Below, piece by piece: positions 1 to 64,000 of a stretch of 64,000 bases of DNA. The notes beneath the pieces were generated by a model. It was not told the origin of the DNA, did no database searches, and worked only from the letters and a program-made list of their open reading frames with translations. Source of the DNA: a bacterium HR19. GTDB lineage: Bacteria > Calescibacteriota > Calescibacteriia > Calescibacteriales > Calescibacteriaceae. A program made the position numbers and the translations under genes. The number at the start of each line of letters is the position of its first letter. The stretch's first letter is position 1. The stretch is from NCBI GenBank assembly GCA_002898315.1, contig BEHV01000004.1, positions 62,001-126,000 of the forward strand. Reading direction: 5' to 3'.

Positions 1-645
1 TGGAACATAAAGTATCCTTTGAGATACAAAAAGTCAGATGGCATAATTAAACCGCAAGAGCTCGTAGAAACAACCTATGAACTGACAAAGAATGAAAAAG
101 TTATAATAACAACAGATGTCGGGCAGCACCAGATGTGGGCTGCACAATACTATAAAGTAAAAGAACCAAGAACATTCTTGACATCTGGCGGTCTCGGAAC
201 CATGGGATCTGGATTCCCAGCAGCAATAGGAGCAAAAATTGCAAAACCAGAAAGGTTAGTGATATGCTTCGCAGGAGATGGAAGCTTTCAGATGAACATG
301 CAAGAACTCTCAACAGCAGTGGAAGAGAAGGTAGGAGTAAAGGTCATAATATTCAATAACAACGCTCACGGAATGGTAACACAATGGCAGAGAGAATTTT
401 ACGGCAGAAGGTATTCAGCTTCGGTTTTCAGGGTACAACCAGATTATAAAAAACTCGCAGAAGCTTTCGGAGCAATAGGTTTTGAAGTATCGCATCCATC
501 TCAACTCAAATCAACATTAGAGAAAGCTCTGTTTGAAACACCAGATGATGTTCCAGTTATAGTAGATGTAAAAGTAGACCCAGAAGAGGATGTGTATCCT
601 ATGGTTCCTCCTGGCTCTCCTCCCACAGAAATGCTTCTTTCCTGA
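1..645 (+). CDS. ilvB: Acetolactate synthase large subunit, C-terminal part
   Basis: This is the 3' part of a thiamine-diphosphate enzyme that condenses pyruvate in valine, leucine and isoleucine synthesis. The frame is open from base 1, so the gene begins outside the window. Visible family features are the GLGTMG segment after the conserved TSGG, the ThDP/Mg motif GDGSFQMN, and the NNNAHGMVTQWQ stretch typical of acetohydroxyacid synthases. About 214 residues remain, corresponding to the ThDP-binding C-terminal domain. The small subunit (ilvH) is not seen here. The last 47 bases overlap the 3' end of surE on the other strand. The assignment to acetolactate synthase rather than another ThDP enzyme rests on the QWQ and YPMVPPG motifs. 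Confidence 0.93.
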   Translation, partial: WNIKYPLRYKKSDGIIKPQELVETTYELTKNEKVIITTDVGQHQMWAAQYYKVKEPRTFLTSGGLGTMGSGFPAAIGAKIAKPERLVICFAGDGSFQMNMQELSTAVEEKVGVKVIIFNNNAHGMVTQWQREFYGRRYSASVFRVQPDYKKLAEAFGAIGFEVSHPSQLKSTLEKALFETPDDVPVIVDVKVDPEEDVYPMVPPGSPPTEMLLS

Positions 646-1411
646 TATTCTCTGAAAGCAAAGATAAATCATCTACCCAGAAATCTATTTTAAATTCAAC
701 TTTTATAGGAGTTATAGAAATATACTTTTCTTCAAGGACGAAGTAATCTAAATCTTTAAGGTCTTCATAGCCATCTGCATCCACCTTCAATTCCTTTCCT
801 CCTATAAACCAGAAATCTCTCCCCCGCGGGTCTTGAAAGTGCAGAGCTTTCTCTCCATAAACTCTTCTTGAAAGTTTAGCCAGCTTCACTCCCTTTATTT
901 CAGTTGGGGATTTGAAGAACGGGAAATTTATGTTAAGAACAACTTTTTTCGGCAGAGGATTTTCAAGAGAAAATTTTATTATCTCACATGTCATGCGAGC
1001 TATTGCTTTTAGGTCTCCTGTTCTTCCATCTTTTACTCTTGCTGATACAGCAAATGATGGGATACCAAGAATTGCTCCTTCTATTGCTCCACCAAAAGTT
1101 CCAGAATAAAGAGTATCATCTCCTATATTCTCTCCTATATTTATGCCAGAGATGACAATATCGGGGGTCTTTGGCATTATACCATTTATAGCTATGTTCA
1201 CGCAGTCAGTTGGAGTTCCATCTACTTTAAAAACTCTCTCTTCAACTTTCATCACTCTTATGGCACTGGTAAGGGTTATTGCGTGAGAGCTTCCTGACCT
1301 ATCTTCCCATGTAGCGAAAACCCAAACCTCTCCGAGCTTTTCTGCCTCCTTTCTCAAAGCTATTAACCCCTCTGAATCTAATCCATCATCATTTGTTATC
1401 AAAATAACCAT
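599..1411 (-). CDS. surE: 5'/3'-nucleotidase SurE
   Basis: SurE is a metal-dependent survival-protein phosphatase that dephosphorylates nucleoside monophosphates. The N-terminus ILITNDDGLDSEGL carries the metal-binding NDDG motif. Further family blocks are VDGTPTDCVNIA, SGINIGENIGDDTLYSGTFGGA and a later VLNINFP. At 270 residues it is near the usual 250-260. The ATG lacks a Shine-Dalgarno, and a TAATTT hexamer lies 8 nt upstream, so it may be leaderless. Its stop codon lies inside the convergent acetolactate synthase gene (47 bp overlap). Confident identification. Confidence 0.95.
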   Translation of the reverse strand: MVILITNDDGLDSEGLIALRKEAEKLGEVWVFATWEDRSGSSHAITLTSAIRVMKVEERVFKVDGTPTDCVNIAINGIMPKTPDIVISGINIGENIGDDTLYSGTFGGAIEGAILGIPSFAVSARVKDGRTGDLKAIARMTCEIIKFSLENPLPKKVVLNINFPFFKSPTEIKGVKLAKLSRRVYGEKALHFQDPRGRDFWFIGGKELKVDADGYEDLKDLDYFVLEEKYISITPIKVEFKIDFWVDDLSLLSENIRKEAFLWEESQEEP

Positions 1412-1419
1412 AAAGCCAA

Positions 1420-1425
1420 AAATTA
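1420..1425 (-). promoter_or_regulatory. Possible -10 box of surE (leaderless)
   Basis: TAATTT ends 8 nt before the surE ATG at 1411, and no Shine-Dalgarno is seen. Confidence 0.4.
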
Positions 1426-1498
1426 ATATCAGGGAGCCAGAAAGAAAGAAAAATCAGATTAAACCAAAAAGCAGTTCAAAATCAAAATTCTTGAAAAA

Positions 1499-2281
1499 TC
1501 ACATAGAGAGTTTCAGAGAGTCAGATAAAACCTCAATGAATTTTTTGAGGAACTCACCTATCAGGAAAGCGATTCTGTCAAAAGTAAAAGCGAGCAGAAA
1601 AAGACCTATCAGTATTTTTATCGGGAAGCCGACAACGAATATATTGAACTGCGGTATTGTTCTAGATACTATTCCTGTTGAGATCTCAACAATAAATGTG
1701 GCAAGAAGAATTGGCAGAGCGATTTGAACCGAAACCGCAAATGACTCCGAAATTTTTTCGTTGAAAAATTCAGGAAATCTCTCGTTTAAGACAGCGTAGA
1801 AAGGAGGAACCATCTTAAAACTCTCTTTCAAACCCCAAAAAAAACCAATGTGAAGGTCAAGCACAAAAAAAATCACCATAGATATAAAGAAAAAAAACTC
1901 GGAAATAACCGAAAGCGGATTTTCCTCAAAGGGATTTGTGATCGTCATAAATCCGTACCCGAGCTGATAGCTCATCGCCTCTCCTGAAAGCTGTGGAGCT
2001 GTCAAAAATATCCTTATTATGAGAAAAATAAGAAAAGAGATGAAAAGTTCGCTCAAAATTCCAACGAATATGCTTGCTAAATCCACGGGTAAAGAAAACG
2101 ATATTCCAGCAGAGCTCAAACCAGAATATATAGCAAGCGCCACAGAAAAAGATAAGCCCAACCTTATTATAGGAATAACAACCTGAGATGAAAACATAGG
2201 AACAGCAAAGATGAAAAACGATGTCCTTATAAATATAGGAAGAAATTGCAAAAACTTCTCGGGATTCCAAAATACATCCAT
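1499..2281 (-). CDS. fliR: Flagellar export apparatus protein FliR
   Basis: FliR is an inner-membrane component of the flagellar type III export gate. The protein is 260 residues with about six hydrophobic helices and family segments such as RTSFFIFAVPMFSS near the start, PQLSGEAMSYQLGYGF near residue 95, and QIALPILLATFIVEISTGIVSRTIPQFN near 190, which matches FliR/SctT. It stands alone, without fliP, fliQ or flhB beside it, so the export genes are dispersed. The ATG lacks a Shine-Dalgarno and has a TAAAAT box 9 nt upstream. Confidence 0.92.
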   Translation of the reverse strand: MDVFWNPEKFLQFLPIFIRTSFFIFAVPMFSSQVVIPIIRLGLSFSVALAIYSGLSSAGISFSLPVDLASIFVGILSELFISFLIFLIIRIFLTAPQLSGEAMSYQLGYGFMTITNPFEENPLSVISEFFFFISMVIFFVLDLHIGFFWGLKESFKMVPPFYAVLNERFPEFFNEKISESFAVSVQIALPILLATFIVEISTGIVSRTIPQFNIFVVGFPIKILIGLFLLAFTFDRIAFLIGEFLKKFIEVLSDSLKLSM

Positions 2282-2290
2282 CAGTGATAA

Positions 2291-2296
2291 ATTTTA
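2291..2296 (-). promoter_or_regulatory. Possible -10 box of fliR
   Basis: TAAAAT ends 9 nt before the ATG; the stretch TTTTAAAATTTATCA is shared with the starts at 23542 and 40627. Confidence 0.5.
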
Positions 2297-2381
2297 AAAT
2301 TCCAGAGATAGCAGAAAAGATCAGACCCAAAAACAAAAACAAACTTTATTGTTTCTTATAGCTAATTTCAGATTTTCACAT

Positions 2382-2387
2382 TAAGCT
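2382..2387 (+). promoter_or_regulatory. Possible -10 box of FAD oxidoreductase gene
   Basis: TAAGCT ends 6 nt before the ATG at 2394, without a Shine-Dalgarno. Confidence 0.4.
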
Positions 2388-2393
2388 ATATGT

Positions 2394-3713
2394 ATGATAG
2401 AGAAACCAAGCTTTTGGCTATCGCAGATAGATTTTTCTCTTAACCCATCTCTTGAAGGCGAAGAAAATTGCGACTTCGCAATAGTGGGTGGAGGATTCAC
2501 AGGCATAGCGACTTCATACTTTCTCAAAAAATTAGAACCATCGTCAAAAGTTATAGTGGTAGAACAAAAGTATGTGGGATACGGAGCAAGTGGCAGAAAC
2601 GCTGGATTCTGCATGACACTCTTTGGACTAAACCTATCTCTTACAGTTTTAAGGTACGGGAAAAAGAACGCTCTTGAAGCGTATAAATACACATCAGAAG
2701 GAATAGACATAGTAAAAAATCTTGTAGAAGAACATAAGATTGACTGCGATTTTGAGTATAACGGATTTATAAGAGTTGCAACATCAAAGCTTTACGAAAG
2801 AAGGTTGAAAAAAGAGTTTGAATTAGCGGTGAATTTGGGAATAGAAGACGCAAAGTGGCTAACAAAAGATGAGTTAGAACAAAAAGTCATCTCTCCTGCT
2901 ATGAGATGTGGTTGGTATGAAAGGCACTGCGCACTTTTAAACCCCGCAAAACTCGTAAGAGGAATGAAAGAAGTTGTAGAAAAAATGGGAGTAAAAATAT
3001 ACGAAAACAATCCGTCAATTGAAGTTGAAAGAAGAAACGATGGAAAATTTATAATAAGGTCAGAAAAAGGGAGAATAATCGCAGATAAAATAGTTTTTGC
3101 AACAAACGCCTTTTCTATCAGCATACCTCAACTCAAAAACAAGCAAACCCCTGTATTCACGCATATAGTCCTTACCGAACCTCTTGGTGAAGAACACTTC
3201 CAGAAAATAAACTGGCGAGGCAGAGAAGGATTAGAAGATTCTCGCAACCTTATTCATTACTTCCGACTCACAAAAGATAACAGGTTACTGATGGGAGGAA
3301 GAGATGTGACGATAACATTCGGGGAAAATATGCAAAAAGATATAAATCAAAAAACTTTTGAAGGTCTCAAAAGAGATATTAAATTTATCTTCCCACAGCT
3401 TTCTGACCTGAAAATTGATTACATGTGGGGGGGACCGGTATCTGTTACTCTTGACCTTGTTCCCGCAATAGGATACGTTGGAGATAAAAATGCAATATAC
3501 TCTCTCGGATGCATAGGGCACGGTGTCTCACTCTCTCACATAAACGGGCTTACAATAGCAGAGCTTCTCCTTGAGAGAAAAAGTAAGAGGACGGAAATGT
3601 TCTTCATAAATAGGTTCATAATACCATTTCCTCCAGAACCTTTAAGATTTGTTATCTCTCATATTATAAAGGGGGCGATGAAAATTCAAGATGCAATATA
3701 CGACAGAATATAG
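2394..3713 (+). CDS. FAD-dependent oxidoreductase, D-amino-acid oxidase (DAO) family
   Basis: A 439-residue flavoenzyme of the glycine/D-amino-acid oxidase family, closest in motif layout to gamma-glutamylputrescine oxidase-type members. It has an N-terminal dinucleotide fold (FAIVGGGFTGIATSYFL, about residues 28-44), the subfamily signature GASGRNAGF (about 64-72), a second ADKIVFATNAFS segment near 233, and a C-terminal GCIGHGVSLSH FAD-closing segment near 370. Family members oxidise an amine or amino acid to an imine; the substrate cannot be read from sequence. The gene is monocistronic and ends 4 nt from the convergent ddl stop. The start follows TAAGCT by 6 nt with no Shine-Dalgarno. Confidence 0.85.
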   Translation: MIEKPSFWLSQIDFSLNPSLEGEENCDFAIVGGGFTGIATSYFLKKLEPSSKVIVVEQKYVGYGASGRNAGFCMTLFGLNLSLTVLRYGKKNALEAYKYTSEGIDIVKNLVEEHKIDCDFEYNGFIRVATSKLYERRLKKEFELAVNLGIEDAKWLTKDELEQKVISPAMRCGWYERHCALLNPAKLVRGMKEVVEKMGVKIYENNPSIEVERRNDGKFIIRSEKGRIIADKIVFATNAFSISIPQLKNKQTPVFTHIVLTEPLGEEHFQKINWRGREGLEDSRNLIHYFRLTKDNRLLMGGRDVTITFGENMQKDINQKTFEGLKRDIKFIFPQLSDLKIDYMWGGPVSVTLDLVPAIGYVGDKNAIYSLGCIGHGVSLSHINGLTIAELLLERKSKRTEMFFINRFIIPFPPEPLRFVISHIIKGAMKIQDAIYDRI

Positions 3714-3717
3714 GTTT

Positions 3718-4713
3718 TTACTTTCTATGTATTTTCAGTGAAGCGTTCAACAAAATTGCCTCAACGAAATCCTCAAAGCTAATGCCCCTGTACAGAGCTA
3801 TTTTTGGGAGAAGAGACCTTTCGGTCATTCCCGGAATTGTATTGAGTTCAAGAAAAAACGGTTTCCCATTTTTCAGCTTGAAATCCAACCTGACTGCTCC
3901 TTGCACTTCAAAAATATCACAAATCTTTTTAGATAAGATCAGAACCTCCTCTACAACATCATCACTGACATTTTCGGGGGGAATGATGTAGCTTGTCTTC
4001 CCCCTGTATTTTGCGTGAAATGAAAATATCTCATCTTCATGTGGTATTATCTCAAGCGCCCCCATGACCATCTTTTCAAAGACACCAACGGTTAGCTCTG
4101 GTCCGTCTAAAAAATCTTCAATGATTATCCTTGATGAAAACCTAAATGCTTCATCTATTGATTTTTCTATATCTTTTTTTTCTTTTACGAGAGATATTCC
4201 AAGTGAAGAGCCGGAGAAAGCTGGTTTGACTACAAATGGGAGATCAAAGCTTTTCGCCTTCTCAATCGCTTCCTCTTTTGTTCTTGCAATTTCAAACTTC
4301 GGCTGTGGGAGAATTTTAGCCATAGACAGAGCAACAAGGACCTTATCCATAAAAAATGCGGATAGAACAGGATCAGGAGATGTATAAGGTATTTTCATTA
4401 TCTCAAGGAGTCCTTGCACCGTTCCGTCTTCACCATACCTCCCGTGAAGGCAAATAAAAGCAGATTGAAATTTTTTGAGATAGTTAAGGTCATCAACAGG
4501 AAATACAACTTTTTCAACATCGTAACCTTTTTTCAAAAGAGCGTTAAAGACCGCCTCACCGCTCCTCAAAGATATCTCTCTCTCTTCGGATTCCCCTCCC
4601 ATTATAACACAAACTTTTTCTGGTTTTCTCTTTTTCTTTTTCAGTTCGTTTATGAATGAGAACAACTCCTCATCTGAAACCTCGTTCTTGAAAATTTTTT
4701 CTCTTCTGGACAC
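3718..4713 (-). CDS. ddl: D-alanine--D-alanine ligase
   Basis: An ATP-grasp ligase that makes D-Ala-D-Ala for peptidoglycan. Motifs in order are VIMGGESEEREISLRSG (about residues 37-53), LHGRYGEDGTVQG (about 90), PFVVKPAFSGSSLGI (about 160), and LELNTIPGMTERSLLP near the C-terminus. The 331-residue length is slightly long because of a charged N-terminal extension of about 30 residues. The start is a GTG with no Shine-Dalgarno but a perfect TAAAAT 6 nt upstream. I favour this GTG because of the box spacing; the conserved domain begins later, so an internal start is possible. Confidence 0.94.
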   Translation of the reverse strand: MSRREKIFKNEVSDEELFSFINELKKKKRKPEKVCVIMGGESEEREISLRSGEAVFNALLKKGYDVEKVVFPVDDLNYLKKFQSAFICLHGRYGEDGTVQGLLEIMKIPYTSPDPVLSAFFMDKVLVALSMAKILPQPKFEIARTKEEAIEKAKSFDLPFVVKPAFSGSSLGISLVKEKKDIEKSIDEAFRFSSRIIIEDFLDGPELTVGVFEKMVMGALEIIPHEDEIFSFHAKYRGKTSYIIPPENVSDDVVEEVLILSKKICDIFEVQGAVRLDFKLKNGKPFFLELNTIPGMTERSLLPKIALYRGISFEDFVEAILLNASLKIHRK

Positions 4714-4719
4714 AGAAGA

Positions 4720-4725
4720 ATTTTA
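4720..4725 (-). promoter_or_regulatory. -10 box of ddl setting a GTG start
   Basis: TAAAAT ends exactly 6 nt before the GTG at 4713; no Shine-Dalgarno is present. This spacing supports transcription starting at or next to the GTG. Confidence 0.55.
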
Positions 4726-4770
4726 AAAGAATTGAGACATATTTTTTATCTTGCGCGTCAGAATGAATTT

Positions 4771-6465: not shown

Positions 6466-6519
6466 ACACTAAATAATTTAAGAAAAATCAAGAGTAATTT
6501 TCAATAAACAGGATAAAAA

Positions 6520-7350
6520 TCAGCCTATCTTTGGACTTGAAAGAGTTCCCTTTAACCTTATTGTCTGAGAAGGTATGTTCAAAAGGTTTGTCTTGAGTTC
6601 AAAAGTTAGGTCTATTTGGGACTCAAAGAACGGATTTTTTATGATCAGCGAGCCCTTGCCACTTCCTTCTATATTACCCCCTCTCATCTCAAATCTATCT
6701 AATGTCATCACCCCATTTTTTATAGTCACTTCTGCATTTACCTTCCCAAGAGAAAACTCTCCCTCAACGGGGACATGAAGCTTATTTGTGTTTTTCAATA
6801 CAATAATGGTTTTATCTTTATCTGATGAAGACAGGAGGAATTTTCCTTCAAGAGAGTTTGGGGTTCTTATATCACCATTTAGTTTTAGTTCTATCTTCAA
6901 GTTTCCTTTTCCGCCGAGGTCAAAAATACTCATAAGCTCTTCGCTACTTATATCTCCTGTCAAATAAACAGATGATAAACTCATTTTTTCTGGACGAAAA
7001 ATATTTTTAGCGGTAAAGTTTATTGTCAATACAGATTGTTCTGTTTTGAGCTTCAAAGACCCCTTGAATTTTCCAAAAACCAAGTACAAAGGAGAAAAAA
7101 GAGAAGGAGAAATTTTCATTTCTTTGAAATGTATTTCTTTTCCTTCGCGAGGGCGGATTTCAACTCCCACAAGTTTAACTCCAAAAGGAAAAAACGAGAA
7201 ACCAGCACTTTCAATATGTATAATGTCGCTCTTTGAGTTGATAAAATCTACAAAATTGCTCCACGGGAAAAAAATAACTGAACCAAACAACACACCCCAG
7301 AAGAAAACAATAAAAAGCAAAAAAAACCTTTTCAGCTTTGAACTCATCAT
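6520..7350 (-). CDS. gspN: GspN-like type II secretion / AsmA-like protein
   Basis: A 276-residue protein with one N-terminal membrane helix (about residues 8-30) followed by a beta-rich periplasmic region. The pattern IESAGFSFFPFGVKLVGVEIRP and later GNLKIELKLNGDI...GGNIEGSGKGSLII resembles the GspN group of type II secretion proteins, which have an AsmA-like fold. It is separated from other secretion genes, although a GspI-like pilin gene lies at about 32 kb. The GspN call is from overall layout, not from a decisive motif. Two adjacent ATG codons make the exact start uncertain by one residue. Confidence 0.55.
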   Translation of the reverse strand: MMSSKLKRFFLLFIVFFWGVLFGSVIFFPWSNFVDFINSKSDIIHIESAGFSFFPFGVKLVGVEIRPREGKEIHFKEMKISPSLFSPLYLVFGKFKGSLKLKTEQSVLTINFTAKNIFRPEKMSLSSVYLTGDISSEELMSIFDLGGKGNLKIELKLNGDIRTPNSLEGKFLLSSSDKDKTIIVLKNTNKLHVPVEGEFSLGKVNAEVTIKNGVMTLDRFEMRGGNIEGSGKGSLIIKNPFFESQIDLTFELKTNLLNIPSQTIRLKGTLSSPKIG

Positions 7351-7384
7351 TAATACAGGTAAAACTCTCTCAAAAGAAAATAAA

Positions 7385-7390
7385 TAAATT
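7385..7390 (+). promoter_or_regulatory. -10 box of first cheW
   Basis: TAAATT ends 7 nt before the ATG at 7398. It lies inside the longer reading from 7338, so it argues against that start. Confidence 0.5.
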
Positions 7391-7397
7391 TATTATT

Positions 7398-7970: not shown

Positions 7971-8010
7971 ACAAATAATTGAGCAAATCAAAATCAAAAA
8001 TTTCTATATC

Positions 8011-8016
8011 TAACTT
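8011..8016 (+). promoter_or_regulatory. Possible -10 box of purB
   Basis: TAACTT ends 7 nt before the ATG at 8024; no Shine-Dalgarno. Confidence 0.42.
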
Positions 8017-8023
8017 TTAGATT

Positions 8024-9538
8024 ATGCTTGGATGGATAACAAGATACAAAAGCGATAGAATGATGAAAATATGGAGTGAAGAAGAAAAGTTCAGAATATG
8101 GAAAGAAATTGAAGTAGCTGTTCTTGAAGGATGGGCAAAACTCGGAGTGGTTCCTCCTTCTGTTCCCGCAGAGCTGAAAAAAGTTGATGTAAAACCAGAA
8201 GAAGTAAGGCAAGAAGAAATAAAGACACGACACGAAGTCACCGCCTTCGTAAGAACCCTTGAAAAAAAGGTCTCACCCACAACCGCAAGATTTATTCACT
8301 TCGGACTGACATCATCAGATGTAATAGATACATCATTATCTATCCAGATGCGAAATTCAATCAGACTCCTTATAGAAGGTATTGAAGGAATAGAAAAAAT
8401 ACTTCTGGAATTAGCAGAAAGGTATAAAGATGTCATAGGAGTAGGAAGAACTCACGGAATACACGCAGAACCAATCTCCATTGGCATAAAATTTCTCTCA
8501 CACTTCGCAGAGTTCAGAAGAGCAAGAAGAAGATTACTCATAGCAGAAGAAGAAATATCAGTAGGGAAAATTTCAGGAGCGGTAGGTATATATAGCACAG
8601 TCCCCCCAGAAGTTGAAGAATATGTCCTCCAAAAATTTGGTCTGAGACCCGAAACGGTCGCAACTCAAGTTATACCAAGAGATAGACACGCTTTCTTCGG
8701 ATTAGCATGTGCCCTTCTTGCAGGTGCAATAGAACGAATTGCTCTGAACTTGCGACTACACCAAATAACAGAAATAGATGAAATAAGAGAGCCATTTGAA
8801 GAAGAGCAAACCGGTTCATCGGTTATGCCACACAAAAGAAACCCAATATTATCTGAAAATCTCACTGGTATATCAAGAATAATAAAAAGCTCTGTTACGG
8901 CGCTCCTTGAAAATATACCTCTTTTCATGGAAAGAGATATTTCTCATTCATCGGTAGAAAGAGTTATCTTGCCAGAAATATGCATACTCCTTGATTTCGC
9001 TCTTGGTAGATTAAAACTTCTTCTTGAAGGAATTCAGGTAAACGAAGACAAGATAAAGCAGAACTTGCAAATATCTAAAAATCTCATTCTTTCCTCAAGA
9101 GCTTTATCTGAACTCGTAATGCTCGGATTTGACAGAGAAAAAGCTTACAAACTAATTCAGAAAGCATCTTTTGACACAATAGAAGGGAAGTTTGATGACT
9201 TCTTATCTGCACTTATACACTACATTGAAAAAGAAGATAAGAAAACAGCAGAAAAACTCAAAGAAAAACTTACCCCCCTCAAACTCCCCTATATCAACCA
9301 AATTTTCGTAAGAGCAGAAAATATGCCGGTTGAAGTAAAAGTAAAAAAGAGAAGAGATATTTTTGACCCAGAAGGGAAAGCGATAAAAGATAGATTAACC
9401 AAACTCGGATACGATGTCCGTGATGTGAAAGTTGGAAAGGTCTTTGAGATATGGATGAAAAATCACAGAAAAGAAATGATAGAAGATGTATTCGTAAATC
9501 CTATCGTAGAAACATACGAAATAGAAATAAAAGATTGA
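8024..9538 (+). CDS. purB: Adenylosuccinate lyase fused to a PurS-like domain
   Basis: The first ~430 residues are adenylosuccinate lyase, which cleaves SAICAR and adenylosuccinate in purine synthesis. Motifs are THGIHAEPISIG near residue 147, and the superfamily signature with flexible catalytic loop, GSSVMPHKRNP, near 265-275. Known bacterial PurB is about 430-475 residues; this protein has 504. The tail, about residues 434-504, reads like PurS, the small subunit of FGAM synthase: DPEGKAIKDRLTKLGY, then VKVGKVFEI, then NPIVETYEIEI. This is a two-step fusion within one pathway. The ATG has a TAACTT box 7 nt upstream and no Shine-Dalgarno. Confidence 0.93.
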   Translation: MLGWITRYKSDRMMKIWSEEEKFRIWKEIEVAVLEGWAKLGVVPPSVPAELKKVDVKPEEVRQEEIKTRHEVTAFVRTLEKKVSPTTARFIHFGLTSSDVIDTSLSIQMRNSIRLLIEGIEGIEKILLELAERYKDVIGVGRTHGIHAEPISIGIKFLSHFAEFRRARRRLLIAEEEISVGKISGAVGIYSTVPPEVEEYVLQKFGLRPETVATQVIPRDRHAFFGLACALLAGAIERIALNLRLHQITEIDEIREPFEEEQTGSSVMPHKRNPILSENLTGISRIIKSSVTALLENIPLFMERDISHSSVERVILPEICILLDFALGRLKLLLEGIQVNEDKIKQNLQISKNLILSSRALSELVMLGFDREKAYKLIQKASFDTIEGKFDDFLSALIHYIEKEDKKTAEKLKEKLTPLKLPYINQIFVRAENMPVEVKVKKRRDIFDPEGKAIKDRLTKLGYDVRDVKVGKVFEIWMKNHRKEMIEDVFVNPIVETYEIEIKD

Positions 9539-9552: not shown

Positions 9553-9558
9553 TAAAAT
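9553..9558 (+). promoter_or_regulatory. -10 box of lipoprotein gene at 9564
   Basis: TAAAAT ends 5 nt before the ATG, within the 25-nt gap after purB, so the gene may have its own promoter. Confidence 0.5.
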
Positions 9559-10597: not shown

Positions 10598-10603
10598 TAA
10601 AAT
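10598..10603 (+). promoter_or_regulatory. -10 box of second cheW
   Basis: TAAAAT ends 5 nt before the GTG at 10609, and 11 nt before the ATG at 10615. Confidence 0.5.
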
Positions 10604-20251: not shown

Positions 20252-20329
20252 AAATCCAAAAACAACCTATAAATTAAAATTTACAGAAAAATAAATGTGT
20301 AGGGTTGAATAAATTAAACTTTGTAAGAT

Positions 20330-23526: not shown

Positions 23527-23532
23527 TAAAAT
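23527..23532 (+). promoter_or_regulatory. -10 box of methyltransferase gene
   Basis: TAAAAT ends 9 nt before the ATG at 23542; the flanking TTTATCAG repeats that of pyrR. Confidence 0.45.
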
Positions 23533-26102: not shown

Positions 26103-26777
26103 CTATTCCTCTTTTATTCCAATAACCTTTTCAAATTCAAAGTTTAAATTCCCTATTCCAACAAAAACATTGTTTCCCTCCAAAGATACAGAATCTATTT
26201 TTCCGAATGTAAGATGAGATGGTTTGAACTCATTTCCTGCGGAATCATGGGCAACAATTTCAAACGAGTATTGACCATCTTGAACAGCATTTCCGCTATC
26301 GTTTTTTCCATCCCAGACCACATAGTGCTTTCCAGCATCAACATCTGAAAGGTGAATCCTTTTCACAACTATTCCGCCGGGACCTAATATCTTTACCTCA
26401 ACATCTCTCGCAGGTATATCAAGTGAAAAAGCCGGGTAATTCAAAACCTTCCCTTGGGAGACAAAAAGAGTTTTGCCCTCAATATAAGCTTTTTTTCCTA
26501 TGATGTTTGACGCAGAAAAGAAATTTGCGCGAGCTATGGACTTTGAAAGCTCATCTATTGTATCTTTCAGATTCATTGATTGCTCAACTTGAGCTAAAAT
26601 TGAAAGCTGAGTCATAAGGTCTTTGTAATCAACAGATGATTCAAAATCTTGGTATTTCAACTGGGTGAAAAGAAGCTTCAAAAAATCATCTCTGCTTATT
26701 TTTGTTGATGGATTTGCAACCTGTCGCTGACCAGAACCTGAAAGGTCGTTCAAAATTCCTGAAATATCGTTTGCCAT
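26103..26777 (-). CDS. flgD: Flagellar hook assembly protein FlgD
   Basis: FlgD caps the growing hook and is lost later. The N-terminal signature ISRDDFLKLLFTQLKYQDFESS...DYKDLMTQLSILAQVEQ (about residues 25-68) is clear. The C-terminal half contains the FlgD Ig-like/tudor region with KHYVVWDGKNDSGNAVQDGQYSFEIVAHDSAGNEF. 224 residues is normal. An AGGAG lies 8 nt before the ATG. It is the middle gene of the fliK-flgD-flgE group. Confidence 0.93.
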   Translation of the reverse strand: MANDISGILNDLSGSGQRQVANPSTKISRDDFLKLLFTQLKYQDFESSVDYKDLMTQLSILAQVEQSMNLKDTIDELSKSIARANFFSASNIIGKKAYIEGKTLFVSQGKVLNYPAFSLDIPARDVEVKILGPGGIVVKRIHLSDVDAGKHYVVWDGKNDSGNAVQDGQYSFEIVAHDSAGNEFKPSHLTFGKIDSVSLEGNNVFVGIGNLNFEFEKVIGIKEE

Positions 26778-31888: not shown

Positions 31889-31894
31889 AATATA
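31889..31894 (-). promoter_or_regulatory. -10 box of fmdB-rpe pair
   Basis: TATATT ends 6 nt before the ATG at 31882; rpe downstream uses a Shine-Dalgarno instead. Confidence 0.5.
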
Positions 31895-31942
31895 TTATTA
31901 TATAGACACAAACTTGAAATAGCGATAGTAAAATTTTTTGCA

Positions 31943-35581: not shown

Positions 35582-35587
35582 ATTTTA
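35582..35587 (-). promoter_or_regulatory. -10 box of trypsin-like gene, GTG start
   Basis: TAAAAT ends 6 nt before the GTG at 35575. With ddl, this is a clear case of a GTG placed at the expected transcription start. Confidence 0.55.
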
Positions 35588-39381: not shown

Positions 39382-39387
39382 TAAATT
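39382..39387 (+). promoter_or_regulatory. -10 box of dxr
   Basis: TAAATT ends 5 nt before the ATG at 39393; no Shine-Dalgarno. Confidence 0.48.
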
Positions 39388-40613: not shown

Positions 40614-40619
40614 TAAAAT
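40614..40619 (+). promoter_or_regulatory. -10 box of pyrR
   Basis: TAAAAT ends 7 nt before the ATG at 40627. The 40 nt between dxr and pyrR holds no Shine-Dalgarno. Confidence 0.55.
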
Positions 40620-43869: not shown

Positions 43870-43875
43870 AATTTA
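43870..43875 (-). promoter_or_regulatory. -10 box of penicillin acylase gene
   Basis: TAAATT ends 6 nt before the ATG at 43863. Confidence 0.48.
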
Positions 43876-45064: not shown

Positions 45065-45070
45065 ATTTTA
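45065..45070 (-). promoter_or_regulatory. -10 box of fliM
   Basis: TAAAAT ends 7 nt before the first of two ATGs at 45057, arguing against a longer N-terminus. Confidence 0.55.
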
Positions 45071-45637: not shown

Positions 45638-45643
45638 AAAATA
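45638..45643 (-). promoter_or_regulatory. Possible -10 box of B12-binding gene
   Basis: TATTTT ends 5 nt before the ATG at 45632. Confidence 0.42.
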
Positions 45644-45728: not shown

Positions 45729-45734
45729 TAAAAT
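45729..45734 (+). promoter_or_regulatory. -10 box of membrane protein gene
   Basis: TAAAAT ends 7 nt before the ATG at 45742; the alternative ATG at 45724 lies upstream of it. Confidence 0.5.
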
Positions 45735-45741: not shown

Positions 45742-47025
45742 ATGTCAAACACTGTTCAGAGAGTTATGATCTCCCCCTTATCAATATTGGCACTTATTCT
45801 CATAAGAGTTATCTTTGAGACAACAAGAGTTTATACTGAATCAAAAGGAGGATTTCTTTTCTCAAGATTCTGGCTATACTCAAACATAATATGGTTTGAC
45901 ATTTTTTTTGCAAACCTTGTCTCAAAGAAAATCTATCCTTTCTCTGTATCTATACCGCTCGCACTTTTTTCAACTTTGGGACTCTTTCTTGACAAATTTT
46001 TTCTGATGATGGATTATACATACGGAATCCCCATAAACAACCTCGCAAAAACCATAACATCTTTTTTTGTCTTTTCAAGAGGAATTCCTAAAATAAGCTT
46101 CATTCTATTTTTTCTTTCAAAAATCATTCTTACTCTGATTTATGGAAGGTATAACATTATAAAATCTATCATCTATGTTTTATGCTCTTATCTCATGTGG
46201 ATAATTTTCAGCACAGAAACAATTTACGGAAAATCAAACATTTTTTTCATGATTTTACAGGAAGATGTTGCTTATGGAATTTCTGGAATGATATATGCCT
46301 TTGCTTTCTTTCTTCTCTTCCAGAGAAATCTACTCAAAAAGATTTTGAAATATGGATTACAAGACCTCTCAATTTTATATGCGGTAATATTAGCTATATT
46401 CGGCACTTTTTCAGTAGGTAAATTAGATTATCCCTACTTTTTCCTCACATTTCTTTCAGTTATGGCGTTCTTTATTATTCAATACATATTTTTGCTCCTG
46501 AATGAAGAACACTTACCAGATAGCCTTGAGAAATTGAGTTTTCTCATTTTCCTTGAAATAACAATTTTTTCTAATTTAAGAGGGATTTTTGTCGTTCCGA
46601 CAATATTTATAGTTTTTCTCTCGGCTCTCTACCATCTTCCACCACTTGAAATCAAAAGGAGAATTTTTGCTCCGCTTTTTTCCTCCGCATTCGCTGGCTT
46701 CCTCATAATAGTATCTCATACCTCAACAAAAAAGACATTCTCAATACCTTCCGAGGTTATCTTCGTATCACTGATCTCATCTGGCTTTGCCTTTCTTGAT
46801 TCTCTCACATCAAAGCTTCGCGGAATTTTTCAAAAGATTTCAGCTTTCATAACCTGCATCTTTCCATCAATATTCATGAGATCACCTGAAAACTTCCTTG
46901 TATCACTCTTTTTGGGAATGCTCTCAATAAAGTTCAGCGAGAAAAAAATCATAAGATTCCTTGTAGCAGCTTACTTTGTATCTCAATACTCATATGCAAA
47001 ATATAGATTACAGATTTTCTTATAA
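45742..47025 (+). CDS. Polytopic membrane protein, unknown (weakly UbiA-like)
   Basis: About 427 residues with ten or more hydrophobic helices and few charges. I do not recognise the family. One segment, LSALYHLPPLEIKRRI, resembles the YxLPPLxxKR region after the second aspartate motif in UbiA-type prenyltransferases, but the Asp-rich NDxxD motif is not visible. The start at 45742 is used because TAAAAT ends 7 nt before it, rather than the earlier in-frame ATG at 45724, which would be upstream of that box. An enoyl-CoA hydratase gene begins 29 nt after its stop. Confidence 0.55.
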   Translation: MSNTVQRVMISPLSILALILIRVIFETTRVYTESKGGFLFSRFWLYSNIIWFDIFFANLVSKKIYPFSVSIPLALFSTLGLFLDKFFLMMDYTYGIPINNLAKTITSFFVFSRGIPKISFILFFLSKIILTLIYGRYNIIKSIIYVLCSYLMWIIFSTETIYGKSNIFFMILQEDVAYGISGMIYAFAFFLLFQRNLLKKILKYGLQDLSILYAVILAIFGTFSVGKLDYPYFFLTFLSVMAFFIIQYIFLLLNEEHLPDSLEKLSFLIFLEITIFSNLRGIFVVPTIFIVFLSALYHLPPLEIKRRIFAPLFSSAFAGFLIIVSHTSTKKTFSIPSEVIFVSLISSGFAFLDSLTSKLRGIFQKISAFITCIFPSIFMRSPENFLVSLFLGMLSIKFSEKKIIRFLVAAYFVSQYSYAKYRLQIFL

Positions 47026-47892: not shown

Positions 47893-47898
47893 TAAATT
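47893..47898 (+). promoter_or_regulatory. -10 box of PBP1A gene, GTG start
   Basis: TAAATT ends 7 nt before the GTG at 47906; no Shine-Dalgarno. Confidence 0.5.
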
Positions 47899-53539: not shown

Positions 53540-53657
53540 AACTTCTCAATAAAACTTCATAATAATAAAAAGGCAAAAAAATTCAAAAGCAGTAGAAAAA
53601 TTAAAATTACGAAACAATAAAAAAAGCAAAATCTCTAAAATTAGAATTATTTTTGGT

Positions 53658-55815: not shown

Positions 55816-55910
55816 AAAACAAATCAATTATTATAATCCAAAAAAGAAACTTATCTCTTTTGATAAAATTATTTGGTAACCAGACAAAATTACCACATCA
55901 ACAGAAAAAA

Positions 55911-58268: not shown

Positions 58269-58367
58269 AATCAAAAACCTCCTTTATCTAATTAATTTTA
58301 TTCATCTGATGTTATTTCGGAGCATTAAGCAGTAAATTTACTTATAAGACAGAACTACACCGAAAAA

Positions 58368-59315
58368 TCAGTCAATTGAGAGAAAATCAAGAGGGTTAAG
58401 AGGTTTTGTCCCTCTTCTTACTTCAAAGTGGAGATGTGGAGTTGTTGCATTTCCCGTCTGACCGACCTTACCTATAACCTGACCTCTTTTCACAAATTCA
58501 TTCTCTTTAACCGTGTTATATTTATTATGAGCATAAACCGTAAAATAATCTCCTTCGTGTTTTATTATGACAACATTTCCGTATCCTTTAAGAAAACCCG
58601 AAAATATCACAACCCCATCTTCTGCTGCAAGTATATCTGTTCCCTCAGGAGCAGATATGTCTACTCCTTTGTGTTCCCTTCCGTTTCTATCTCCGAAGTT
58701 TGAAATAACTTTACCTTTTACAGGGGGTATAAAAGACAACCTTCCAGAACGAGTCCTATCAGCTGATGCAAGATTTAATTTCACAGAACCCTTACTTTCT
58801 ATCTTTGGCGGTATCTTTTTATCTGACGAGTTTGCTTTTTCTTTCCGAGAAGCGTCTTTTTCATCAGAAATTAAGTTATCATCTTGTTTTGTCTTATGAA
58901 GAGCAGAGAGAGTTAAGCTTCTTTCATAGCTTTCGTCTTTTATATCAGATTCATCTCCTGCATTTTTTTTATCTTTATTTTCCGGGTATTGAGTTGTTTT
59001 CTTGCTTGTTTCGGTTTTATCTGCGGTTTCCTGCTTCTTCCACTTCACACTTTCACTTTTTGCCTCTTTCCTATCAAGAGGTATATATATAACATCACCT
59101 TCTTTTAATCCTTCCGGGTCAAATCCCCAGGGAAATTTTTTATTCGCTTCTGATATGTCTTTTTCTGATACTCCGTATTTCCTTGCTATATCAGACAGGG
59201 TCTCTCCTCTTTTAACATGGTGATATATTCCATATCCACAGCCGATAAAATAGAGGAAAAAAGGAAGCACAATCAACCAAAGCCGTATTTCCCTTTTAGT
59301 TTCACAAATTTGCAT
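58368..59315 (-). CDS. LysM/M23 peptidase, NlpD/EnvC-like
   Basis: About 315 residues. A signal/anchor helix near residues 10-25 (LWLIVLPFFLYFIGCGYG) is followed by a LysM domain YHHVKRGETLSDIARKYGVSEKDISEANK (parts quoted). A Ser/Lys/Glu-rich linker then leads to a C-terminal M23 domain (HKGVDISAPEGTDILAAEDG, VYAHN, HLHFEVRRG near the end). The His-x-His and HxxxD parts needed for zinc binding look intact, so it may be an active peptidoglycan endopeptidase. AGGAG lies 8 nt before ATG 59315. It overlaps pcm by 43 nt. Confidence 0.82.
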   Translation of the reverse strand: MQICETKREIRLWLIVLPFFLYFIGCGYGIYHHVKRGETLSDIARKYGVSEKDISEANKKFPWGFDPEGLKEGDVIYIPLDRKEAKSESVKWKKQETADKTETSKKTTQYPENKDKKNAGDESDIKDESYERSLTLSALHKTKQDDNLISDEKDASRKEKANSSDKKIPPKIESKGSVKLNLASADRTRSGRLSFIPPVKGKVISNFGDRNGREHKGVDISAPEGTDILAAEDGVVIFSGFLKGYGNVVIIKHEGDYFTVYAHNKYNTVKENEFVKRGQVIGKVGQTGNATTPHLHFEVRRGTKPLNPLDFLSID

Positions 59316-59992
59316 GGACATATCTCCTGTTTTTCGTATCCCTTTCCGTTTTCTACTTTTATAATTTTACTAAGAATTTGTTCTTCCTCATCGCCAATAG
59401 GTATAAGCATTATTCCGTTGTCTTTGAGCTGATGAATAAGAGGTTCAGGAACAGAAGGAGAGGCAGCGGAGACACAAATCCTATCGTATGGTGCCAGAAA
59501 TTCAACACCACAAGAGCCATCTCCTACAACAAAACTCACATTATTCAACCCCAAAAGTGAGATTTTTTCCTTTGCGGAGTCAGAAAGTGAGCTTATAAAT
59601 TCTATTGTTACCACCTCTTTGCTCAGCAGAGATAATATAGCGGTATGATAACCTGAACCTGTTCCGACCTCAAGAACTCTTTCCTCACCTTTGAGTTCAA
59701 GATTTTCAGTCATAAGAGCTATTATGTATGGTTGAGATATAGTTTGACCGAAACCTATCGGCAAAGGTTTATCTTCATAAGCCAAGTGTTGTATGTTTCT
59801 CGGAACGAATATATGTCTTGGGACAAAAAGCATAGCCAAAATAACCCTTTGGTCTTTTATTCCCCTGCTCACAAAAAGCTCTATCATCTTTTCTCTCTCA
59901 TATTTATACTCTTCAAAGTGGTTCAAAATTTCTTTCGTGATGGTAATTTTGAGTTCCTGAGCTTTTTTGAGAAGGTCTTCTAATCTTTGCAT
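59273..59992 (-). CDS. pcm: Protein-L-isoaspartate O-methyltransferase
   Basis: Repairs damaged asparagine/aspartate residues using SAM. A 239-residue protein with PRHIFVPRNIQHLAYEDKPLPIGFGQTISQPYIIALMTE, ERVLEVGTGSGYHTAILSLL (SAM motif I) near residue 108, and YDRICVSAASPSVPEPLIHQLKDNGIMLIPIG near 175-205. The PIGFGQTISQP block is diagnostic. The 3' end overlaps the LysM-M23 start by 43 nt. The ATG at 59992 has no clear Shine-Dalgarno. Confidence 0.94.
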   Translation of the reverse strand: MQRLEDLLKKAQELKITITKEILNHFEEYKYEREKMIELFVSRGIKDQRVILAMLFVPRHIFVPRNIQHLAYEDKPLPIGFGQTISQPYIIALMTENLELKGEERVLEVGTGSGYHTAILSLLSKEVVTIEFISSLSDSAKEKISLLGLNNVSFVVGDGSCGVEFLAPYDRICVSAASPSVPEPLIHQLKDNGIMLIPIGDEEEQILSKIIKVENGKGYEKQEICPCKFVKLKGKYGFG

Positions 59993-60007
59993 AAAAATTT
60001 TCAGAAT

Positions 60008-61390
60008 TCAGGCGATAATTTTACCTTTGTTTTCTTTTTTAGCTAAAAGGAGTTTTCTATCTGCAAACTCAAATATCTCTCTTGCATCCTTACACTCTTC
60101 GGGAAACTCTGATATACCACCGCTTATAGATATCTTCACCTGATTTTCCCATCCAAGCTGACCTATGAGTTCTGATATTTTTTCCATTTCTCTCACCGCT
60201 TTTCCTCTTGACGCACCCGAAATCAATATAGCAAACTCATCTCCTCCAAACCTTGAAATCACATCTAACCTGCGGAACTCTTCTTTGAGAATTCTTGCAA
60301 CTTCAACAAGAACCTTATCACCAAAAGAGTAGCCGTATTTCAAATTTATATCTCTGAAATCGTCAATATCAAAAAGAACAAAAGAAAAGTTTTGTCCCAT
60401 ACTTATTACTTTTTGGACTTCTTCCATCATTCTTGTTCTGTTGAGGAGACCTGTGAGGTTATCTTTACCATACATGCTCTTTATTTGTTTGAGGAGGTTT
60501 GAGTTTTTTATAGCTATTGCCAGCTGGTCTGCAACTCTTTTCAGGAGTTCTATTTCTTCGTCGCTGAAAGATGCAACTCCTGATTTATTGAAGTTCAAAA
60601 CACCCATAATTTCGCCACCAAATTTTATGGGGATTGATAAGAACGATCCGTATTCTACGAATTCTCCCTTCCAGTGAAGATACCTTCTATCTCTTGCGGT
60701 ATCTGGGACATATATGTATTCACCAGTTGAGAAAACAAGACCAGATATTCCTTCTGTTGGAGCGAACTTCATATTGCGCAGGTTTTTTGGAAAACCGTAA
60801 AGTGCTTTAACCTCAAGCAAATCCCCATTTTCATTTTTCAGAAGGACAGCCAACTTTTCAACTTTCAGTTTTTCACCTATCATCTTGACTACAAAATCAA
60901 GAATATCCTCCGCCTCAATGATGGAATTTATCTTTGAAGTTATATCGTATATTATTTGAAGGTGGGAAACTTTCTCCTCCATCTTCTTTATTCTGTCGCT
61001 TGCAGTTTTAAGTTCTTTTCTCAATCTATCAACCCCTTCAACATTCGCATACTTTATCATGTTCTCAAGCTCTATTTTCTGGACCTCATACTCCTGAATT
61101 CTCTTCAAAAGAAACTCCATAGCATTTATGAACAAGTGATACTGTTGCGGTAATCTTTTTTTTAGAGAACCTATATCTACATATTCTGGAAAATCCTTTA
61201 CATCTTTGATTATATCATTTGCGGTTTTGAACTCTCTTTCTTTGACTTTAGATTTCAAAAATACTCCTAAAAGGAGCAAGAGCAAGGAAATGACAATTTT
61301 ATAGTTAACCTCAATATCGCTTACCCCTACAAGAAAAGATAAGATAACTGAAAGTATAAGTGGAATGTCTGCTCTCTCCAGAATTTTCAT
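60008..61390 (-). CDS. GAF-GGDEF diguanylate cyclase, membrane-anchored
   Basis: A 460-residue protein. Two N-terminal membrane helices (about residues 10-46) lead to a coiled region, a GAF domain (about 150-300; IYDITSKINSIIEAEDILDFVV, VSGVASFSDEEIELLKRVADQLAIAI), and a C-terminal GGDEF domain. The catalytic motif is RFGGDEF, intact. An RxxD inhibitory site (RRLD) lies five residues before it. It should make cyclic di-GMP in response to a GAF ligand. AGGAG lies before the ATG. Together with the FHA-GGDEF protein it gives two cyclases in this window. Confidence 0.92.
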   Translation of the reverse strand: MKILERADIPLILSVILSFLVGVSDIEVNYKIVISLLLLLLGVFLKSKVKEREFKTANDIIKDVKDFPEYVDIGSLKKRLPQQYHLFINAMEFLLKRIQEYEVQKIELENMIKYANVEGVDRLRKELKTASDRIKKMEEKVSHLQIIYDITSKINSIIEAEDILDFVVKMIGEKLKVEKLAVLLKNENGDLLEVKALYGFPKNLRNMKFAPTEGISGLVFSTGEYIYVPDTARDRRYLHWKGEFVEYGSFLSIPIKFGGEIMGVLNFNKSGVASFSDEEIELLKRVADQLAIAIKNSNLLKQIKSMYGKDNLTGLLNRTRMMEEVQKVISMGQNFSFVLFDIDDFRDINLKYGYSFGDKVLVEVARILKEEFRRLDVISRFGGDEFAILISGASRGKAVREMEKISELIGQLGWENQVKISISGGISEFPEECKDAREIFEFADRKLLLAKKENKGKIIA

Positions 61391-61521
61391 TTTTCCCTCT
61401 CCTTTCCCTTACCAAATGTAAAATTAAGGCAGAAAAGAAAAATTCAAAAATTTTGCCAGCAAGATTACAAGTAATAATCGGAAAGCTATTTCAGATAACT
61501 CGCAGTTTGTTTTTTGAGGAT

Positions 61522-61527
61522 TAAAAT
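61522..61527 (+). promoter_or_regulatory. -10 box of NurA-like gene
   Basis: TAAAAT ends 8 nt before the ATG at 61536, with no Shine-Dalgarno. Confidence 0.5.
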
Positions 61528-61535
61528 TTAATAAG

Positions 61536-62510
61536 ATGCTTGATATAAGATTAAGCTTCTCACAAAGAGAGAGAGAACCGTGGTTCTTTGAATACAAAGA
61601 CCAAGGCGACGGCGACTCAGATTTATACAAAGAGATAGTAGAAATTGAAGAAAGTAGAGACAAAAAAATATCATTACAAAATTGCTCTCAAAATGAGATA
61701 GGTTTCGTTTTTGTAGATGGAGTCCTTGACAAGATAGGAGAAGGCAAAATAAAAATTTCAGAAAGAGAGAGCGAGTTCCTTCTTTTTTCAATGTGTGTCG
61801 GATGCGGATTTGAAAACGGTCAGCTGATAGAAAAAAATATAGAAAATATCTTCTGGATAGTTGAGGACCAACATATAAACGAGATAAAAGAGATAGAAAG
61901 AAAAACAGAATGCAAAATAATCGCAACACGAGAAGCAAGATACGCATATTCAGAAATACTTCAAACAATGAGAGAAAAAGAGATAAAAATGGCTCTGAAA
62001 GTTTCCGAAAGAATGCAAAATATTTCAAAAAAAATCATGTTCTTTATACTTGATGGTCCAATATACCATACCAAATTAGATGAACTTAAAAACAGGGGAA
62101 TTTTCTGCGGAATTGTGAAAAACCCAGAAAAACTATACGGAACAGCCAAAGAAGAAATATCAGAGCTCAAAATCGGAGAGAGAACAAAACTCAAAAAAGT
62201 TATCTTCTCAAAAAGAGAAGAACTATCAAAAAAAGAAAAGTTCTTTTTCTTTATGAAAGTGGGAAAACACAAACAGCAACTTATAAGAGTGGACTTTCTC
62301 CCAGAAGATGAAGAAAAATTAGAACCTTTTTCTATCGCAGAAATTTTAAAAGAGAAAATATCTATGTGGGCTTCAGATATAGGAGACAGAGCCCCAGAAA
62401 ACCTAACTCCAATAAGAATACTTGAAAACAGATTGAGAGCCATAAAAGGAGACAAAAAGATAATCCAGAGAAAAATAAAAAATAAAATAGAACTCCCACT
62501 CTTACCTTGA
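61536..62510 (+). CDS. NurA-like nuclease domain protein
   Basis: A 324-residue protein. Two features fit NurA, the 5'-3' nuclease that partners HerA in DNA end resection: an early IGFVFVDGVLDKIG with an aspartate in VDG (near residue 53), and FFILDGPIYHTKLDELKNRGIFCGIVKNPEKLYG (LDGP near 172). Its C-terminus APENLTPIRILENRLRAIKGDKKII also resembles bacterial NurA-like sequences. No HerA is in the window, so this rests on motifs alone. TAAAAT ends 8 nt before the ATG, with no Shine-Dalgarno. Confidence 0.6.
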   Translation: MLDIRLSFSQREREPWFFEYKDQGDGDSDLYKEIVEIEESRDKKISLQNCSQNEIGFVFVDGVLDKIGEGKIKISERESEFLLFSMCVGCGFENGQLIEKNIENIFWIVEDQHINEIKEIERKTECKIIATREARYAYSEILQTMREKEIKMALKVSERMQNISKKIMFFILDGPIYHTKLDELKNRGIFCGIVKNPEKLYGTAKEEISELKIGERTKLKKVIFSKREELSKKEKFFFFMKVGKHKQQLIRVDFLPEDEEKLEPFSIAEILKEKISMWASDIGDRAPENLTPIRILENRLRAIKGDKKIIQRKIKNKIELPLLP

Positions 62511-62527
62511 AAAGAAGCAGAAAAAAT

Positions 62528-63343
62528 TTAAAAACTGGGTTTTTTCTCCTCTTGAATTAATCTTTCTAAGTCCAATATAGATTTCTGAACTTTCTCATCT
62601 ATTTCCCTTTCATCAAGTTTTCTCTTGCATAGTTCCTTTTTTTTGAAGAGAATGAAAAATTCCATATTCCCAGATGAACCAAGAGGGAAAGAGAAAGTTA
62701 TATCCTGAACCCAGAAAATATCTTCAACCTGAGATATAACTTTTTTTATAGCGAGAGAGATGAGTTTTTTGTCTTTCAAAATTCCATCTTTGAGGAATTT
62801 GCGTGGGACTTCAAAATTCGGTTTGCACAGGAGCAAAACATCAGGAATAAACTTTATGTTTCTCAGAATCGGGATAGAAGAAGTGAAAGAGACATCACAC
62901 GAAGCGAAATCTATTTTCTCATCAAAATCCTCTTCGCGTATATACTTTGCATCCACGCCCTCCATGATTACAACTCTCAGGTCCCTTCTCAGTTTATCTG
63001 CGAGAAGTCCTTTTCCTATATCTATCGCATATACCTTTTTTGCTCCCGCTGAAAGGAGGAACTGAGTAAATCCACCCGTAGAGCTTCCTATATCTGCACA
63101 GACCTTCCCTTCAACGCTCAAATTCAACCTCTCAAAAGCTCCCTTTATTTTGAGAAAACCACGAGAAACATAATCTATGTTCTCCTCAAGCTCTATCACA
63201 GAGTTCTCTTCAACCATTTGAGATGGTTTTAAAACATACGAGCCATTTACCTTGACTTTTCCGGAGATTATAAGTTCTTTTGCTTTCTCCCGCGACTCAA
63301 CAATTCCCTTTTTCACAAGAAGAACATCAATCCTTTCTTTCAT
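62528..63343 (-). CDS. tlyA: TlyA-family rRNA 2'-O-methyltransferase / hemolysin-like
   Basis: TlyA 2'-O-methylates cytidines in 16S and/or 23S rRNA and affects capreomycin sensitivity in mycobacteria. The N-terminal S4 RNA-binding domain ERIDVLLVKKGIVESREKAKELIISGKVKVNG is at residues 3-34. The FtsJ-like methyltransferase has VCADIGSSTGGFTQFLLSAGAKKVYAIDIG near 88 and DFASCDVSF near 148. 271 residues is normal. TAGAAT ends 7 nt before the ATG, with no Shine-Dalgarno. It lies between the NurA-like and amidase genes. Confidence 0.92.
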   Translation of the reverse strand: MKERIDVLLVKKGIVESREKAKELIISGKVKVNGSYVLKPSQMVEENSVIELEENIDYVSRGFLKIKGAFERLNLSVEGKVCADIGSSTGGFTQFLLSAGAKKVYAIDIGKGLLADKLRRDLRVVIMEGVDAKYIREEDFDEKIDFASCDVSFTSSIPILRNIKFIPDVLLLCKPNFEVPRKFLKDGILKDKKLISLAIKKVISQVEDIFWVQDITFSFPLGSSGNMEFFILFKKKELCKRKLDEREIDEKVQKSILDLERLIQEEKKPSF

Positions 63344-63350
63344 ATCAGGT

Positions 63351-63356
63351 ATTCTA
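63351..63356 (-). promoter_or_regulatory. -10 box of tlyA
   Basis: TAGAAT ends 7 nt before the ATG at 63343, inside the 21-nt gap to the amidase gene on the same strand. Confidence 0.48.
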
Positions 63357-63364
63357 TGAAAAAA

Positions 63365-64000
63365 TTATTTTTGCTCATAAGTTGAGTGTGTAATAGATGA
63401 GATTTTCGGAGGAATCCACCCCCCAAAAGCCCTTTCAATCTCATTAGCCACTCTTATTGTAAGATGGTCATTACCCCAAGAGCCAACAATTTGAACTCCC
63501 AGAGGAAGCCCATTCCTTCCAATTCCTAACGGAGCGCATGTTGAAGGGAAACCCAGAACATTGAATATTCCTGTGAATTGTCCCGGGTCAAGGAGACGAA
63601 AGATAGGGAGATAATGGGGTGGAGCAGTTGAAGAAAAAGGAGGATAAAGCATAACACCATCATCTCCCATCTCCTCGGTCAAAATTCTTTTTAGTTCTTC
63701 ATAAAGCTTGAAAATCTTCTCTGCTCTTTTACCCTTGAAAAATGGGAACTGCTCTAAGACACAAAGGATTATAAGAGGAAGAGTGTGGCGAGACCTTCCA
63801 AAAATCCACCTGAAAAGCTCAAGGAACGGAGAAAAATTCCCATCCTTCTCCATAAGTTCTGAAAGAGTGATTTCAGACGCATTTTCCATCATGGTAAAGT
63901 AAATCTCAAAAGCGCTTTTCAGAAAAGGGATTTTCTTCTGCTCAACTTTCAGACCTATCGTTTTGAAAAACTCTGCTACCCTCTTTTGAGCGAACAAAAT
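63365..64000 (-). CDS. Amidase, C-terminal part
   Basis: The 3' part of an amidase signature-type enzyme; the frame remains open past the window edge, so the start is missing. The segment PHYLPIFRLLDPGQFTGIFNVLGFPSTCAPLGIGRNGLPLGVQIVGSWGNDHLTIRVANEIERAFGGW is typical of FAAH/GatA-like C-termini (only part quoted). The catalytic Ser-Ser-Lys region lies outside. GatA, indole acetamide hydrolase or fatty-acid amide hydrolase are all possible. It ends 21 nt from tlyA. Confidence 0.75.
   Translation of the reverse strand: MLFAQKRVAEFFKTIGLKVEQKKIPFLKSAFEIYFTMMENASEITLSELMEKDGNFSPFLELFRWIFGRSRHTLPLIILCVLEQFPFFKGKRAEKIFKLYEELKRILTEEMGDDGVMLYPPFSSTAPPHYLPIFRLLDPGQFTGIFNVLGFPSTCAPLGIGRNGLPLGVQIVGSWGNDHLTIRVANEIERAFGGWIPPKISSITHSTYEQK

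Follow-up and report, generated by a model that had tools for sequence, protein, structure and literature searches.

In the genome of an uncultured hot-spring bacterium of the candidate phylum Calescibacteriota, an estimated 25-35% of the genes carry a TANNNT-type box at a short distance from the start codon and appear to be of a leaderless type. The best explanation, to which we assign a probability of about 0.8, is that these are leaderless or near-leaderless (0-5 nt) starts driven by the box as a -10 promoter element. We favour this reading because the distance between box and start is fixed and sharp, starts inside operons are poor in the box, tRNA genes have it as well, and it is shifted upstream in genes that have a Shine-Dalgarno (SD) site.

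The stretch of DNA that was analysed, here called the window, comprises 64,000 nucleotides (bases 62001-126000 of contig 4) of a draft genome (G000) of 1.876 Mb in 22 contigs, which is 82% complete and has an AT content of 63%. The closest named relative is Ca. Calescibacterium. RpoB shares 95% identity with that of MAG BF2.bins.44 and 76% with that of Candidatus Calescibacterium nevadense, which places the organism in the Calescibacteriota. The genome was reassembled almost whole from stretches, and 1660 genes were called with a home-made coding-potential finder that never uses the sequence upstream of a start. Genome-wide counts refer to the 923 starts called with a clear margin (unambiguous starts), counts within the window to 55 called starts. 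In this analysis the phylum is represented by five genomes, G000 to G004, and the comparison with the relative G003 (~90% DNA identity) covers 38.6-58.5 kb of the window. Tight operons are very few across the whole genome, the mean same-strand run with gaps <40 nt being 1.3 genes.

The candidate boxes in the window and two SD-class genes are listed below.

1420..1425 (-): -10 box TAATTT, 8 nt before ATG 1411
2291..2296 (-): -10 box TAAAAT, 9 nt before ATG 2281; start insecure, alternative ATG 84 nt in
2382..2387 (+): -10 box TAAGCT, 6 nt before ATG 2394
4720..4725 (-): -10 box TAAAAT, 6 nt before GTG 4713 (D-Ala-D-Ala ligase)
6475..6480 (-): -10 box TAAATT, 9 nt before ATG 6465
7385..7390 (+): -10 box TAAATT, 7 nt before ATG 7398
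8011..8016 (+): -10 box TAACTT, 7 nt before ATG 8024 (PurB-PurS fusion)
9553..9558 (+): -10 box TAAAAT, 5 nt before ATG 9564
10598..10603 (+): -10 box TAAAAT, 5 nt before GTG 10609; 11 nt before the alternative ATG 10615
20315..20320 (+): -10 box TAAACT, 9 nt before ATG 20330
23527..23532 (+): -10 box TAAAAT, 9 nt before ATG 23542
26103..26777 (-): SD-class gene, SD site and no box at 4-11 nt
31892..31897 (-): -10 box TAATAT, 9 nt before ATG 31882; overlapping alternatives with gaps of 4 and 6
35582..35587 (-): -10 box TAAAAT, 6 nt before GTG 35575
39382..39387 (+): -10 box TAAATT, 5 nt before ATG 39393 (dxr); box and spacing kept in G003
40614..40619 (+): -10 box TAAAAT, 7 nt before ATG 40627; identical in G003
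43870..43875 (-): -10 box TAAATT, 6 nt before ATG 43863; kept in G003
45065..45070 (-): -10 box TAAAAT, 7 nt before ATG 45057; identical in G003
45638..45643 (-): -10-like TATTTT, 5 nt before ATG 45632; identical in G003
45729..45734 (+): -10 box TAAAAT, 7 nt before ATG 45742; start and box kept in G003
47893..47898 (+): -10 box TAAATT, 7 nt before GTG 47906 (PBP1A); GTG, box and spacing identical in G003
53642..53647 (+): -10 box TAGAAT, 10 nt before ATG 53658; last 16 nt identical in G003
60008..61390 (-): SD-class gene for a GGDEF protein; the leaderless-type gene at 61536 diverges from it
61522..61527 (+): -10 box TAAAAT, 8 nt before ATG 61536
63351..63356 (-): -10 box TAGAAT, 7 nt before ATG 63343

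The start at GTG 10609 is not secure, as the in-frame ATG 10615 scores slightly higher. The gene at 8024-9538 (+) encodes an adenylosuccinate lyase, PurB, with a PurS-like domain fused to its C-terminus.

According to the original prediction, about 26 starts in this stretch combine the lack of an SD site with a TANNNT hexamer 4-9 nt before the start codon. Fourteen of the 15 coordinates given as examples agree with this description and show no obvious SD site; the exception is 29509, where TANNNT occurs at gaps of 16 and 21. Four GTG starts had been singled out for sharing the same distance, and they indeed carry TAAAAT or TAAATT at gaps of 6 (4713), 5 (10609), 6 (35575) and 7 nt (47906). Among the 55 called starts, 23 have TANNNT at a gap of 4-9 nt, compared with 10.5 on average (sd 2.8) over 300 dinucleotide shuffles, the highest of which reached 18 (z 4.4), so the hexamer is not found at the same density in shuffled sequence. 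The signal exceeds chance, but roughly 10 of the ~26 proposed cases are to be expected by chance. Genome-wide, 319 of the 923 unambiguous starts bear TANNNT in this interval versus 154.7 after shuffling (sd 10.3, z 16). The peak lies at gaps of 6-10 nt, with the first T at -12 to -16, and falls off sharply beyond gap 10; single positions reach 65-81 counts at gaps 6-9 against a background of 23. Fixed spacing near the start is thereby borne out, whereas the proposed range of 4-9 nt was slightly short. In-frame stop codons (TAA/TAG) were considered as a source of the TA dinucleotide and ruled out, since the out-of-frame gaps 7, 8 and 10 are also enriched.

TANNNT is a common hexamer in a 63% AT genome, and the ~10 window cases expected by chance show how readily it arises. 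Nevertheless, the dinucleotide shuffles already refute an origin by chance. An artefact of start calling is at odds with a caller blind to upstream sequence and with the start at 45742, which is predicted by its box and is the one conserved in G003. Moreover, the peak is absent from an AT-rich, SD-using control, a Priestia megaterium plasmid of low GC content (a small sample of 62 starts; 4.8% versus 22% background), and an equally small Deinococcus deserti plasmid sample (63 starts) gives 14% versus 2.7%. Chance or artefact therefore has next to no probability as an explanation.

A de novo expectation-maximization (EM) search of 835 non-SD starts, run with box-like seeds and a flat position prior, returned TTAAAATTT, a hexamer ending 6-10 nt before the start with matrix frequencies of T.73 A.87 A.81 A.67 A.50 T.92, followed by TT. 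TAAAAT and TAAATT are the most frequent hexamers. The same search on control sequence shifted 40 nt further upstream yielded no positioned motif. A second EM motif, AAAGGAGGT at 8 nt, is the SD site and belongs to ~19-20% of the genes; the 16S rRNA retains the anti-SD end GGATCACCTCCTTT. Leaderless-type starts with a posterior >0.5 number 320 of 923, while 427 of the 923 (46%) fit neither class. No start exceeds both the SD and the box threshold, which is partly built in because the positions of the two signals overlap. The share of 25-35% reflects the 320 starts by posterior and the 22.5% by plain TANNNT excess. The leaderless type is thus the commonest recognisable mode, ahead of SD genes (19%), but the designation as a main mode holds only in part, as 46% of starts carry neither signal. 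In 19 divergent gene pairs both starts, 55-118 bp apart, are leaderless-type.

The distribution of the box among genes bears on whether it acts in transcription or in translation. Of divergent starts 43% are leaderless-type, versus 15% where a same-strand gene lies <15 nt upstream (Fisher p 6e-9), and EM at 106 non-SD starts of the latter kind positioned no motif. Upstream of 43 tRNA genes, the mean best score of the box matrix at 5-24 nt is 4.85, compared with 2.26 (sd 0.40) in shuffled sequence. Near the start of 43 divergent SD genes there is no box; it peaks instead 24-27 nt upstream (0.23 per gene versus 0.05 in leaderless-type genes), which leaves room for a leader containing the SD site. 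Operon-internal depletion, presence at tRNA genes and the upstream shift in SD genes together provide good support for the box as a -10 promoter element and not a translation signal. An A/U-rich element within the mRNA leader that aids the ribosome, as a site for protein S1 or an unstructured region, is by comparison very improbable. Such a role has been proposed for Bacteroidetes and other low-SD bacteria, and the AT-rich bias at -20 to -10 of non-SD genes has been explained by S1 sites and also by Pribnow boxes (PMC5397173); SD sites are also few in the present genome. An S1-type element, however, should occur at operon-internal starts, where EM positions nothing; it would not be expected before untranslated tRNA genes, and in SD genes it should hold its place near the start instead of moving upstream.

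If the box is a promoter, the leaders could still be ~5-20 nt long and lack an SD site. The usual distance from a -10 box to the start is 6-7 nt, and the observed peak at 6-10 nt is close to that but somewhat wider and further away; in addition, boxes are slightly overrepresented at 12-27 nt in divergent unassigned genes. Against such leaders stand the sharp drop of the TANNNT peak past gap 10 and the choice of start codons. TTG initiates 1 of 320 leaderless-type genes versus 28 of 427 unassigned genes, and GTG is used by 11% of leaderless-type versus 4% of SD genes (p 0.007). Depletion of TTG and enrichment of GTG are expected if transcription begins on the purine of the start codon. We therefore regard leaders of this length as rather unlikely. 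A T at -1 was tried as a mark of the transcription start and discarded as not diagnostic (0.61 in leaderless-type versus 0.48 in SD genes).

Leaderless initiation in this bacterium may thus be pictured as follows. In roughly one-quarter to one-third of the genes, the -10 element of an ordinary housekeeping promoter, with the consensus TAAAAT then TT, would lie 6-10 nt upstream of the start codon and would probably be recognised by a divergent RpoD. RNA polymerase would start at, or a few nucleotides from, the A or G of ATG or GTG, and by analogy with other bacteria the resulting mRNA may be translated through direct start-codon recognition of the 70S type. In SD genes the same box, further upstream, would give a transcript with a short leader.

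Within the phylum, seven starts were compared with G003; they had been chosen for having a box. In this ungapped comparison, which exaggerates the number of upstream differences, there are 4 mismatches in 112 positions over the last 16 nt and 23 in 98 over the preceding 14 nt. At 45742 both the start and TAAAAT are kept in G003, whereas ATG 45724, preferred by the gene finder, is not. ATGs 45724 and 46994 (+), both favoured by coding potential, are not conserved in G003, so gene starts are easily misannotated here. The TANNNT peak at gaps 5-10 is present in other genera (G001, 29% versus 18%; G004, 40% versus 16%), and EM on these small samples was noisy and gave no clean motif. With the matrix trained on G000, 12 of 132 G001 orthologue pairs have the box in both members, compared with ~7.4 expected. 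At individual genes the box is weakly kept across genera. The SD class is kept in 17 of the 20 G004 pairs with an SD site in either orthologue, the box class less so.

Starts of this kind had been described as known from Actinobacteria and Deinococcus-Thermus. This holds for both groups, where about 20-46% of genes have them (PMC3160421, PMC12340547), but Zheng et al. (2011) had already reported TA-led genes in several further phyla (PMC3160421). Our genes share with these a TANNNT-type Pribnow box ~12 nt before the start, the lack of an SD site, and a frequency above 20%, the level found in Actinobacteria and Deinococcus-Thermus. Where genomes are AT-rich, the Pribnow consensus was fuller (PMC3160421). 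The consensus here is TAAAATTT, not TAtAAT, there is no TG extension, unlike in Lactococcus, and Calescibacteriota is not named among the phyla listed in that study (PMC3160421). The -10 motif of Deinococcus-Thermus, present at ~30% of ORFs and tested by reporters and transcriptomes, likewise requires a certain spacing to the ORF and needs no -35 element (Zhong et al. 2025, PMC12340547). The present case differs in phylum, low GC content and phased A-tracts, and is known from sequence alone. The extensive leaderless transcription predicted here, in a bacterium that also uses SD sites, has a counterpart in Mycobacterium tuberculosis, where it was mapped by 5'-end sequencing (PMC3898074), whereas ours is read from the genome. 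A literature search of incomplete coverage found no paper joining leaderless starts with Calescibacteriota or Calescamantes. The kind of start is thus known, and the lineage is new to it. The candidate phylum would be added to the few bacterial groups that have leaderless starts about as often as Deinococcus, a point relevant to the questions of an ancestral origin of leaderless initiation and of a link to heat. The box can also be used to correct gene starts in these genomes (e.g. 45742, not 45724).

The earlier impression that a convincing -35 box is lacking proved correct: TTGACA does not occur at any spacing, TTGAC occurs at no more than 2 of the 320 leaderless-type starts, and searches for TTG and TG extensions upstream of the box gave no -35 consensus. 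In place of TTGACA 16-18 bp from the -10 element, as in classical sigma-70 promoters, there are A-tracts. At the 320 leaderless-type starts AAA triplets are phased, preceding the box by ~16, 24 and 33-36 nt (variance 0.0017; none of 400 rotations exceeds 0.00065), a pattern not seen around TAAAWT in the rest of the intergenic DNA. A similar tendency, matched by 13 of 1000 rotations, is present in SD-class promoters; in tRNA promoters TTT occurs at 31-32. In Escherichia coli numbering the A-tracts would lie near -30, -38 and -47, i.e. at the positions of the -35 region and the UP element. Their spacing of ~8-9 bp is unlike the helical repeat of 10.5 bp.

The sole RpoD-like factor found is encoded at L191:934-2334 (-), on contig 11 of G000 near 57.8 kb, and reaches 224 bits, below the cutoff of 354. 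It reads STYAVPWLRQAIMR where others read STYATWWIRQAITR: in region 2.3/2.4 P replaces the first W of the conserved WW pair, and M stands at the equivalent of T440. We tentatively consider a wider scenario possible, though doubtful, in which these thermophiles share phylum-wide leaderless, nearly monocistronic expression; the promoter would lack a -35 element and consist of TAAAATTT together with phased A-tracts, and the primary sigma factor reading it would have an altered -10-melting region. The RpoD-like gene adjoins a neighbouring ORF that we read as a dnaG-like frame, and in the 82% complete genome a single other sigma-70 protein was found, which is RpoH-like (L192).
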